A stretch of DNA of 64,000 nt. It comes from Gavia stellata (taxonomy: Eukaryota; Chordata; Aves; Gaviiformes; Gaviidae). The notes under the pieces are model-generated. The model was not told the DNA's origin and did not search any database. It saw only the letters and a list, made by a program, of their open reading frames with translations. The position numbers and the translations under genes are program-made. The DNA lies in NCBI RefSeq assembly GCF_030936135.1, contig NC_082595.1:24007930-24071929 (forward strand), read 5' to 3'. How positions within the stretch are numbered: the stretch's first letter is position 1; every line of letters begins with the position of its first letter. This document shows, in pieces, positions 13,993 to 30,817 of the stretch.

Positions 13993-14119
13993 CGAAGAAT
14001 GGGAGAGCTAACGGCTCGGGCAACGAGCAGTCTGCTGCAGTTTCCAGAGGTGACTATTCAGGCACTTGGGGAGGATGGCATAACCCTAGATTCTGTGCTG
14101 TGCGGGAAGCTTTCTAGAG
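13993..14119 (+). CDS. AHCTF1: ELYS-like first coding exon, preceded by a splice acceptor
   Basis: The exon follows TTTATTTACAG at 13992, so the ATG at 13999 lies 6 bases inside an internal exon and at least one 5' exon must lie upstream. I did not find that exon or a CpG-rich promoter between 11.6 and 14 kb. It encodes the start of the propeller, with [12 protein letters not shown] as in mammalian ELYS. Confidence 0.8.
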
Positions 14120-17100
14120 GTGAGCATTTTCACCTAAATTTGGTGGTGGTATAAAGCTGTTATGGCCTGGAGGTTACCTGAAGCATAGGGTCATAGTATC
14201 AACTGTGTCAGGTTGGCGCTGTTAAGATGCATCAAGTTTGGAGAGAACAAAAAGGATGTTGTAACGATTGAAAATGCTAATATGAAAACACTAGTATAGT
14301 TAAACTTTGAAATTACAACCCCGTGCACTGGTCTTGTGCTATTAGAATAATTTACTTAAACCTGCTGAGTCAGTGAGCCCTCCTCAATTTCTACTTAAAT
14401 ACAAGGCAGTTTTGCAAAAAGTAATAGTGTTGGTTTGGGCCGTATTTATTTGCACCAGCTCAAGCTCTATGACCGTCATAACATCACACGCAGAAATAGT
14501 TCTCCCACAATGTTACAGCGGCAAAAGCCCTTGCTTTTTCTTTTCTAGTCTGAATAAAAACAGAAGGAAGAGGGCAGCACTGTTAAGCGCTGCAGCTGTA
14601 TTTCCAAAGTATTTAATAGGATGCAGATGAGTAGCCAGCGAGAGCTGCTGGAAGTGGCTAAGCAGATTAGGTAGGTGACTTTCCAGGTGATCTGAAAGCA
14701 GAGCTGGGTGCCGAGCTGGATGTCGAGGCTTCTGTCAAGACCAGGTAGAATCTATCTGCCTAACTGTCAATGCAGTAATGGAGTTAATACTTCCTTCGAG
14801 TTTGAAGCAGTTCAGTGGAGCAAACGCCTTAAATTCTTTCTGTGATCGGCACGTGTAAAAGGTTAAATTTACTAACGCAGTGCCCGTTTTAAGACAATTT
14901 CTTGCTGAAGTCCAAATCCCTGCCCAAAGGAGGCACGCGTCAAGTGACATTTGTAAACTAGAAATGAATTGGCTTAGATTTGTTATATTTGAAGTATGCT
15001 TTAAGACTTGTATTCCCGCCTGTATTTAGATGATTTCTAGCAAAACCAAGCCGACTATGGTACAAAGACTATAGATCAATATATTGTAATCTTTATCCCA
15101 AACGATCAAAATTCTTCAGTGCGGGAATGACAAGTACAAATGCAAAATAAAAAGGTGGTTAATGTTAAGATGTATTGCTTGAGGCTTTCAATGGGTGATT
15201 TTAGAGAACTGACCAGAATTAGGGAAGTCGGTCTTCCTCCGTTAGGGCCTTTTATTGAAGGAAAGGGGCAGTGACTATGACTTTTTTCAGTTGTTTTGAG
15301 TCTTGTGTTGGAAAGTTGCTTTAGTTGGCTTTCTTTTCTCTTACAGGGAGAAATGGCCTAGCATGGTTGGCGTGTGGTCCTCAACTGGAGGTAGTGAACT
15401 CTGTGACAGGAGAGCGGCGCTCTGCATATCGTTTCAGTGGAGTAAATGAACGGCGTCCCACTGTTCGTGTGGTAAAGGAGTTCTCCTGGCAGAAGAGAAC
15501 TGGACTACTGGTTGGGCTGGAAGAAGCAGCGGGAAGTGTTCTCTGTCTGTACGACCTTGGAATATCGAGAGTGGTTAAAGCAGTTGTTCTTCCAGGAAGG
15601 GTACGTACTTTTTAAGTGGCGAAAGGAAGCTTTTATGTTGTTAGGTGCTGCATAATCCTGCTTCAGGAAAAGCTTTGGAGCGCCTCTTTGTAGGAGGTGT
15701 TTTGTTCTGTATTGCATTAATGTACTGTCTTAATGTAAACAAGAATCAGTGTCAGTTAATAGAAAACCCAGATTCCCTGTATTTTTCTCACCTTAGAATC
15801 TGCCACAAATAAATACTTATCTATTACTCAGCTTTCCATAACGTGATTTGGTTTGACTTGCTAGAATACAGCTGGAGGGAGTTTGGTTTGTTTGTAGTGC
15901 TACAGCGTGATTACTAGCAGTAAGCATTTGTATTGTGGTGATTTCTAAAGATATGAGTTGGGTTGGTGCTCCGCTGTGTTAGTTTGCCTATCATCTTGAT
16001 AAATCTTAGAGTTTGAGATGGAAGGACAAGCTGTGTGCTGACATCAGCGTATAATCAGTAAGTAAACTATGTTGGTGAAAAAGGTCATAGCTTTGTTAAG
16101 TTTTGATCTACATAAGCAGGGAATAGGAAAAAGGAAAGGTTAAGAAGGATCACGTCACATACCGAATCTGTGTCTACCAAAGTGATTTGAAATAGAACGT
16201 AGTTAGACCTGCCAGTTGTATTGGGGAGTTCTTCTATACCGCAAGACAATGGTTCAGGAGAAAATACGAAGAAGCCTCGGGGGGAAAAGTTGGCTGTTGT
16301 GTGATAAAGGTTATGAATTTTGGAATAAAGCCAAAGCTTACCTGAAGTTCTGCTCTTATGCCCTCAACGCTCTTGATGACAAGCATGTTTGGCCTGTTGC
16401 TTTCATTTTGCTTCCTATCTTTTTGCTGTTAGCTTGGTTAGATCAGCATAGACAGGCCACAAGTGTTGCTAGTCGGACTGTTAACTTCTAAGTTGTGAGT
16501 GGGAGTAAGGGTTAGCAAGAACAAGTAGATAAAACTTGCCCCTGGCCACTGTCCCTATGCTTTGAATTTATTCTGTAACTCATACTTCCAAGTTATACAT
16601 TACGTAACATGTGTTTTTAATCTGCTGGAATGTTTCTCTGATTTTCGTAATGATTATTTTTAAACCTAAATTGCAGATCTAGTCTCAACATCACATTCTG
16701 CAGTTTTTGTTGTTACTGTTTTAAGGCTTTGATGAGCACCTTAATTTCTGGACTGTTTTCCGTGTGGGTATATCTTCAGTGGACAACTAAGTTCTACAGG
16801 TTAAGCCTAACTTTGAGCAACTCTGGTCCAAGGTGTCAAGCCATTAGTGTATTAATACGGGGTATTTATAGTGACTGTATGACTGCCTTTTAGTGTAAGA
16901 GTAGATGTGTAGTCATTCAGAGAGCAAAGGAATGAGTTAAAAAACCCAAACTCACAAGCTGAGGAAGAATTTAGGCATAATTTTTTTATTTTTTTCTTTT
17001 TTGTTGTTTTTTTTTTCCTTTTTTCCTTTTTTTCCTTTTTTCCTTTTTTTTTTCCTTTTTTTTTTTTTTTTCTTTTTTTTTTTTTTGGGAGCACAAGTCT

Positions 17101-30100: not shown

Positions 30101-30817
30101 CATGCCATCCAGCCCACTGAAACCAAATACGCATGGTTCCGTCTCACAAAAGAAGTTTTCAGGAGCATCAGAGCTGAATTTACTAGAGACTCCTCTTGTG
30201 GTTAAGGTTCGTACTGTAAAAAACCGGTACCAACCAACCAAAAGAAAAGCCTGTAAACTTTGTTTAAAATGAAACCACCAGAAAAGTCTTTAAAAACAAA
30301 CACTGATTGGTCTTGAGGAACGGAAGAAGGTTTTCGGTGTCCCAGACTTCAGATGAAGTTAAATAGGCTGTCAGTTAGTTAGCTCGTCTCGGCTTTGGGA
30401 GCAGAAATCTCAGAAATGGAGCATGTGATTGCGTACACTGAATACTCTGGTCTCTGTCCCTTAACCGCATGAACTTTTCTCTGTAGGAGAGAGTACATTG
30501 TATGTTTCTGACTTTACATTCAGCGGTGATGTGAAAGGAAACGCAGTCTTTCACTGTCCTCGGTTTTGTCTCGCTCGGTTGGAAGTTAAGTCTGTTTGGT
30601 AATTAATAATGCATTAACAGACGTTTTTTAACTCTAGGTCATTGAAGGTAGTGCGGGTAAGGCACAAACCTCAGAAGCAGCACCTGAAGCATCACCATCT
30701 AGTGAACTACATCCATCAGGCAATCTTCAATACAGCTATAATACTACAGAGCAACAGTTTCCATGGGATTTTCCTGCTAATCAAGATGGTGAATGTGATG
30801 CTGCTGAGGGAGACTGA
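13999..30817 (+). CDS. AHCTF1: Short AHCTF1/ELYS-like nucleoporin, 16 exons, about 800 aa
   Basis: ELYS binds chromatin after mitosis and recruits the Nup107-160 complex to start nuclear pore assembly. Exons: 13999-14119 (exon opens at 13993), 15347-15600, 18769-18949, 19739-19946, 20401-20517, 21528-21612, 23787-23937, 25250-25382, 25470-25651, 26126-26187, 27112-27240, 28714-28858, 28945-29095, 29414-29521, 30011-30206, 30638-30817. All phases match, all borders are AG/GT and no stop interrupts; the sum is 2403 nt. Exons 1-11 cover the N-terminal beta-propeller and its edge, including [14 protein letters not shown], [19 protein letters not shown] and [15 protein letters not shown] segments very close to mammalian ELYS. 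Exon 12 resumes about 430 residues later ([16 protein letters not shown]). Most of the helical domain and the whole AT-hook tail are absent; family length is about 2250. The ATG fits the family start (LT-FPEVT-QALGED). It may be a functional short paralogue, a lineage-specific copy or a very young pseudogene; intact frames favour the first or second. The symbol marks homology, not orthology. Confidence 0.88.
16980..17087. repeat. T-rich low-complexity tract with TTTTTCC units
   Basis: About 108 bases of almost pure T broken by CC in a loose (TTTTTTCC) pattern, directly abutting the truncated 5' end of the following CR1. It lies in intron 2 of the ELYS-like gene. Confidence 0.85.
17088..17503 (+). 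mobile_element. 5'-truncated CR1 LINE
   Basis: It matches the last part of CR1 ORF2 and the 3' end: CTTATGAGGAGCAGCTGAGG, then GGAGAAGAGGAGGCTGAGG, GACCTTATCGCTCTCTACAA, and the tail TTTTCCAACCTTAATGGTTC with TGATTCTGTG. The frame is broken. It sits in intron 2 of the ELYS-like gene, same strand. Confidence 0.92.
21119..21158 (+). repeat. (TC)n dinucleotide repeat
   Basis: An uninterrupted TC run of about 40 bases ending in AG, in the intron between ELYS-like exons 5 and 6. It resembles an over-long polypyrimidine tract and could be mistaken for an acceptor. Confidence 0.95.
22846..22902. repeat. T/G-rich low-complexity stretch
   Basis: TTGTTG and TTTGG units in the 2.2-kb intron between ELYS-like exons 6 and 7. 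I saw nothing else recognisable in that intron. Confidence 0.7.
25735..25790. repeat. A/C-rich low-complexity stretch
   Basis: CAAAC and AAACC units directly downstream of ELYS-like exon 9, in the intron. Confidence 0.7.
28714..28858 (+). CDS. AHCTF1: ELYS-like exon 12, joins in frame after a large internal loss
   Basis: After the TTCAACAG acceptor it reads [19 protein letters not shown], then QYGKILPRE and ERAKPYHLP. In full-length ELYS this lies about 430 residues after the end of exon 11 (SSLSQ at 27240). Both borders are phase 0, so splicing 27240 to 28714 keeps the frame. The 1.47-kb intron between holds no recognisable remnant of the missing exons. Confidence 0.85.
30638..30817 (+). 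CDS. AHCTF1: ELYS-like terminal exon with early stop
   Basis: After TTAACTCTAG the 59 codons include [20 protein letters not shown] and GECDAAEGD, then TGA at 30815. This resembles a piece from the middle of the giant acidic exon of mammalian ELYS (NELYPSG...DQQF...AECDIAE). The flanking parts of that exon and the AT-hook region are absent. The exon follows exon 15 in phase 0. Confidence 0.75.
   Translation, partial: VIEGSAGKAQTSEAAPEASPSSELHPSGNLQYSYNTTEQQFPWDFPANQDGECDAAEGD

Follow-up and report, generated by a model that had tools for sequence, protein, structure and literature searches.

A shortened, open-frame copy of the ELYS gene AHCTF1 in the loon Gavia stellata

Introduction

ELYS, the product of AHCTF1, initiates the reassembly of nuclear pores once mitosis is over, and artificial deletions have been used to dissect its domains. 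The locus described here raises the question of what a naturally shortened form may be: a working protein, or a duplicate that is being lost. In this study, which was based on a stretch of 64,000 nucleotides from contig NC_082595.1 of Gavia stellata (the window) and on the comparison with ELYS proteins of other birds, we characterised a copy of AHCTF1 at 13999..30817 on the forward strand that lacks the helical domain and nearly all of the chromatin-binding tail and has an open frame. We consider that it is probably a decaying tandem duplicate, which arose, or was last homogenised with its source, in the loon lineage.

Results

Anatomy of the shortened copy

The copy is composed of 16 coding blocks with AG/GT borders and compatible phases throughout, and its 15 introns set it apart from a processed pseudogene, which would be intronless. 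The frame is open as far as the TGA at 30815-30817 and yields 801 residues when exon 15 is run to 30209; a donor after 30206 (GTTCGT) fits better and gives a product of 800 residues. Joining the blocks in this way bore out the proposal of a sequence-only reading of this DNA that sixteen in-phase exons with AG/GT borders and no stop make up about 800 codons. The blocks, all on the forward strand, are given below; exons 3, 4, 6 to 10, 12 and 13 were placed by the joined model together with a tblastn match to Gavia ELYS.

13999..14119 (+): exon 1, with the start codon; equals Gavia ELYS residues 1-43, 86% identity
15347..15600 (+): exon 2, propeller; 96.5% identity to Gavia ELYS
18769..18949 (+): exon 3, propeller
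19739..19946 (+): exon 4, propeller
20401..20517 (+): exon 5, propeller; 100% identity to Gavia ELYS over 38 aa
21528..21612 (+): exon 6, propeller
23787..23937 (+): exon 7, propeller
25250..25382 (+): exon 8, propeller
25470..25651 (+): exon 9, propeller
26126..26187 (+): exon 10, end of the propeller
27112..27240 (+): exon 11, ending in SLSQ, the last before the absent helical domain (joined model, Gavia alignment)
28343..28384 (+): remnant of the exon that lies just ahead of the NDRDP exon in full-length AHCTF1, not part of the open model (alignment, direct reading)
28714..28858 (+): exon 12, linker, beginning NDRDP
28945..29095 (+): exon 13, linker
29414..29521 (+): exon 14, linker; 8 of 36 residues unlike Gavia, the highest share of any exon
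30011..30206 (+): exon 15, linker, ending in LLETPLVVK; donor GTTCGT
30638..30817 (+): exon 16, tail piece VIEGSAGK...EGD with the stop codon (Gavia alignment)

The remnant at 28343-28384 encodes 14 residues from the 3' part of its exon and is followed by GT. The frame of the copy is open only when this remnant is skipped, because its inclusion, by splicing at CCCAG, adds 38 nt, shifts the frame and leads to a TAG on direct reading. At the other end of the gene, the start codon of exon 1 has an AG six bases ahead of it, and a 5' non-coding exon is therefore expected.

The product matches the ELYS structure chains 7r5j, 7vci, 4i0o and 7tbl with E-values of 2.8e-262 or better. Its N-terminal seven-bladed beta-propeller (PF16687 region) is present, as a phmmer alignment to 4i0o covers query residues 1-494 (E 2.7e-263), while the linker matches human ELYS residues 979-1203 in the structure-chain search. 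The match of the tail piece to human residues 1521-1582 is weak (11 bits), whereas against Gavia ELYS it reaches 83% (tblastn). The full-length Gavia stellata ELYS (P0151, 2275 aa) matches the window block by block at 65-100% identity, which is far above chance. Absent from the alignment are its residues 542-979, the 438 residues of the helical domain (PF13934); tblastn of this segment at E 0.01 recovered in the window only a few residues at the edge of exon 11, and the 14-residue remnant is the sole trace of the helical-domain side. About 340 further Gavia residues are absent between exons 15 and 16 (from VVK to VIE), where only 431 bases are left, and the intervening exons are therefore gone from the window DNA. 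The product stops at the equivalent of Gavia residue 1580; the tail from residue 1581 is absent from the alignment, and tblastn at E 0.01 found no match in the window to this remaining tail, in which the C-terminal chromatin-binding region with its AT hook lies. The loss of about 430 helical-domain residues and of the AT-hook tail that the sequence-only reading had noted was thus confirmed. Since the window contains no N and an exon remnant persists at 28343, the losses represent real decay and not a gap.

Relationship to full-length loon ELYS

A search with the product returned 140 proteins, of which 120 were listed; many of these are bird "ELYS-like" proteins of about 690-1390 aa, a length range that is set by the search, which limits match length, and is no finding in itself. 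A longer query brought in the full-length bird ELYS proteins (the best 120 of 630). The closest of the 88 proteins compared was Gavia stellata ELYS, with 94.6% identity over 540 residues, followed by a protein with 90.0%. In a propeller tree (residues 1-497, 93 rows after the exclusion of the three partial rows P0045, P0119 and P0120), the window copy and Gavia ELYS were sisters with a support of 100/99 from a bootstrap that had not settled, and their end branches measured 0.060 and 0.009, respectively. The same sisterhood was recovered, with a support of 99, in a linker tree of 200 residues and 71 of 89 rows, from which matches shorter than about 120 residues were dropped; here, the end branches were 0.14 for the copy and 0.035 for Gavia ELYS. 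Being sister to Gavia ELYS in two separate regions, the copy is, as judged from these protein sequences, a loon-lineage duplicate of AHCTF1. A distant vertebrate paralogue was also considered and was rejected on the grounds of this sisterhood. The earlier description of the copy as a new paralogue is partly right: the copy was duplicated from the loon gene at the level of the lineage, and annotated short ELYS-like proteins already exist for other birds. No loon protein of the length of the copy was found among the matches listed (the best 120 of 140), in which the best identity was 88%.

Rate of change and constraint

Changes were polarised with 34 canonical birds and three reptiles over 741 aligned residues. 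The window copy accounted for 43 of the branch changes and Gavia ELYS for 10, with three being unclear, and the copy changed four to seven times faster than the full loon gene. The propeller, whose exons had looked strongly conserved in the sequence-only reading, is indeed better conserved than the linker (24 changes in 541 residues vs 19 in 200, p 0.013).

Several observations weigh against a copy that is simply decaying. Over some 800 codons the frame stays open; without selection, each amino-acid change would be accompanied by about 0.05 stops, so that the 43 changes should have come with about two, and none was seen. The sole insertion or deletion within the aligned parts is in phase and affects one residue. 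Only six of the 24 propeller changes fell on invariant sites, which make up 286 of the 541 propeller sites (p 0.007), and the distribution of the window-branch changes over the exons fits the profile of the canonical genes (p 0.15) better than a uniform rate (p 0.016). A strand skew typical of transcribed genes also persists, which may be inherited from the source gene. When all 56 differences were taken by exon, a uniform rate was rejected (p 0.003) and the canonical profile fitted (p 0.17). Set against the singletons of canonical birds, 92 of 209 of which fall on invariant sites, the six of 24 in the propeller gave p 0.08, and in the linker the invariant sites were not avoided (5 of 19 changes vs 51 of 200 sites, p 1.0). 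These tests used proteins only, with one sister sequence and 24 propeller changes, and mutation rates may vary between exons; moreover, it was the open frame that first drew attention to the copy, so that its openness partly reflects how the copy was picked. The claim of selection is upheld in part, by the invariant sites of the propeller and by the exon profile. Taken at the protein level, the pattern suggests constraint on the copy for at least part of its life, before or after the exon losses.

Neighbouring genes and composition

Two neighbours could be recognised in the window:

2678-2888, 3094-3465, 7976-8134 and 11446-11708, overall 2678..11708 (+): kinesin pieces in changing frames, apparently a relic (compared with the kinesin part of P0213)
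42383 down to 31994 (-): readable parts of SCCPDH that cover almost the entire enzyme and run convergently to the ELYS copy

The kinesin domain (PF00225) was matched at 3094-3465 (E 4.6e-12), and the pieces in changing frames upstream agree with the degraded kinesin that had been noted beside the copy. SCCPDH was located with a probe sequence, and its parts were trimmed and joined at putative splice borders; once joined, they were 95% identical, over 98% of the query, to a cluster that bears the name of Spheniscus humboldti, and SCCPDH next to the copy is apparently intact. A predicted protein of Ciconia boyciana (P0213) passes from ELYS into the same kinesin, which gives the order ELYS then kinesin in that species, and in the window the kinesin pieces precede the ELYS copy. 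The human order we take to be AHCTF1-KIF28P-SCCPDH. As the kinesin pieces and SCCPDH are the usual neighbours of AHCTF1, a tandem duplicate would fit best, and the simplest reading of the layout would be full ELYS, kinesin relic, short ELYS and SCCPDH, with the full gene, which is not contained in the window, placed to its left.

A CpG island lies at about 41-43 kb, at SCCPDH, with a CpG observed/expected ratio of 0.92-0.93, and no island-like stretch was found to the left of exon 1, where the ratio reached at most 0.62 in 1-kb windows over 1-14 kb. Across the kinesin pieces and the ELYS copy (2001-30817), the ratio is 0.44-0.51 compared with 0.24-0.28 in the left flank, the SCCPDH body and the right part, as if 2001-30817 had undergone less germline methylation or had a different recent history. 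On the reverse strand at 31181-31321, past the 3' end of SCCPDH and just behind the ELYS tail, there is a stretch that resembles the start of SCCPDH (KWPYKLVVGGASV), with 25 bp at 92% to its first-exon region. An inverted retroelement pair, whose members are 85% alike, is present at 46754-47514 and 56351-57105, and the adjacent frame 55701-56447 carries an RVT_1 domain; a related piece lies at 17088-17503, within intron 2 of the ELYS copy. A tRNA scan of the window gave no lead.

Short ELYS-like proteins in other birds

The bird ELYS-like proteins are database gene predictions, some of which are flagged as low quality. In the propeller tree, 16 rows from oscine and suboscine passerines form an ELYS-like clade (100/99), and the gannet and the cormorant form a separate duplicate clade of seven rows (100/100). 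An AT-hook-like motif ([RK]GR[RPK]) was found in none of the 15 members of the passerine clade that were scanned compared with two to four per full-length row scanned. The passerine clade without AT hooks and the gannet and cormorant clade can be regarded as retained duplicates. A search for the joins of the loon copy, performed with simple patterns over 239 proteins, found the VVK-VxE join in eight proteins from passerines and in one from a penguin, and the SLSQ-NDRD join in one hoazin protein. In a predicted ELYS-like protein of Aptenodytes patagonicus (P0220), the exon block from NDRDP to VVK occurs three times, which hints at tandem duplication within the gene. In the literature that was searched, no report of an avian ELYS paralogue was found. 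Judged from the sequences, the pattern across birds would mean either that AHCTF1 duplicates often or that an old copy has been converted repeatedly.

Discussion

The course of events that we favour begins in the loon lineage, where a tandem copy of AHCTF1 arose, or was homogenised with its source for the last time, between the kinesin pieces and SCCPDH. Later, the copy would have lost the exons for the helical domain and almost the entire chromatin-binding tail. The coding frame would have been held for part of the life of the copy, perhaps while it was still longer. If a product is made, it would consist of a propeller and a linker that are unable to join the pore, and the copy would now have little or no function. 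The tandem arrangement of the copy and the full gene is inferred from the neighbours. As regards function, PMC4920428 reports that C. elegans MEL-28 without the helical domain lost both pore and kinetochore localisation and did not rescue, and that the N-terminal 1018 residues of ELYS suffice for pore localisation in human cells; by implication, a protein that lacks the helical domain would fail to reach the pores. The proposed role as a competitor of pore assembly is therefore not supported, and it is unlikely because the product keeps only the propeller, the linker and a short tail piece. Propeller-only forms of ELYS are predicted for nematodes and flatworms in one survey (PMC6371224), which would allow some room for a working propeller form, although PMC4920428 describes the worm protein with a helical domain.

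Among the other explanations, an old neoavian ELYS-like tandem copy that was rearranged long ago, was gene-converted repeatedly in each lineage and is thus only seemingly specific to loons is possible, and we lean against it. It would account for the joins that are common to the loon copy and to the passerine, penguin and hoazin proteins, and for the observation that most short copies fall beside a full gene from the same species or order in the propeller tree. However, all of the parts compared, the linker and tail piece included, are close to Gavia ELYS, matching exon phases could have produced the same joins separately, and the joins seen in other birds come from gene predictions, of which that of Spheniscus (P0122) is flagged as low quality. 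It is unlikely, in our view, that the copy is a working shortened ELYS, i.e., a propeller and linker protein with a new role away from the pore such as binding the partners of the propeller without contact with chromatin. The open frame, the intact splice borders of the model and the non-random changes speak for such a protein, as do the persistence of ELYS-like proteins without AT hooks in oscine and suboscine passerines and the propeller-only forms predicted in PMC6371224. Yet PF13934 is found in 16 of the 16 passerine-clade rows and is missing from the window form, the mislocalisation and failed worm rescue in PMC4920428 concern precisely this domain, the remnant exon at 28343-28384 could spoil the transcript, exon 1 has no promoter island to its left and the matches listed contained no annotated loon protein.

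A location of the copy on the W, a germline-restricted or another chromosome, apart from the full gene, would suit the decaying kinesin pieces and the fast change, and separate contigs for the ELYS-like and full proteins are found in Tyto alba (41.5 vs 34.9 Mb), Morus bassanus (44.9 vs 117.8 Mb) and Phalacrocorax aristotelis (1.5 vs 131.3 Mb), so that copies apart from the full gene do occur among birds. In Strigops, Pterocles, Morus and Tyto, the contigs with the ELYS-like proteins measure 41-45 Mb, a size that, as a guess, could be that of a W chromosome in some of them. In contrast, a readable SCCPDH adjoins the loon copy, and the short protein and a full one are assigned contigs of equal length in Larus michahellis, Porphyrio hochstetteri, Theristicus caerulescens, Ammospiza nelsoni and Pithys albifrons. 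The suggestion of a sex-linked or germline-restricted copy is disfavoured by neighbours that are those of the ordinary locus, and we regard it as very improbable. Least credible of all is an assembly artefact in which the absent exons belong at the locus and were dropped. It had been named in the sequence-only reading, and tandem repeats do collapse easily; it was rejected, as the window is free of N, a decayed exon remnant stands at the break and 43 coding changes separate the copy from Gavia ELYS.

Short ELYS-like proteins recur in birds. Natural bird copies without the tail, and in the loon also without the helical domain, would let the role of the remaining parts be asked, and they raise the question of why AHCTF1 was duplicated in so many birds. 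Even if the loon copy is merely decaying, the wider bird pattern is worth a proper study. A speculative extension, to which we give little credence, would be an old and recurrently rearranged bird ELYS-like gene that ceased to bind chromatin at an early stage and was kept by selection; the loon form would be its extreme, reduced to propeller and linker, and would perhaps modulate pore assembly in the germline while evolving under genetic conflict, like the truncated duplicates of nuclear-transport genes in flies. The RanGAP of Segregation Distorter in Drosophila is a truncated duplicate of a nuclear-transport gene. Like such duplicates, the loon copy is a shortened copy of a pore or transport gene; it differs in the gene concerned and in that there is no evidence of drive for it. 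A term search of the text of PMC8645118, which deals with Drosophila nuclear-transport duplicates, finds no mention of Elys.

Closer comparisons come from birds. The passerine ELYS-like proteins (P0011, P0013, P0020, P0059 and others) resemble the loon copy in having no AT-hook-like motif and, in eight of them, the same VVK-VxE join, but they keep the helical domain (PF13934) and form a separate clade inside the passerines. The ELYS-like proteins of the hoazin (P0028) and Tyto alba (P0032) share the absence of the helical domain, and that of the hoazin has an identical SLSQ-NDRD join; each of them, however, groups with the other copy of its own species, other parts are rearranged and the Tyto protein is without exon 11. 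Nearest of all is the full-length Gavia ELYS, from which the window copy differs by the absence of residues 542-979, of the approximately 340 residues that would stand between exons 15 and 16, and of the tail from 1581, and with which it shares a propeller that is 94-95% identical, a linker that is 86% identical and 56 of the 59 residues of the tail piece, as read off the alignment.

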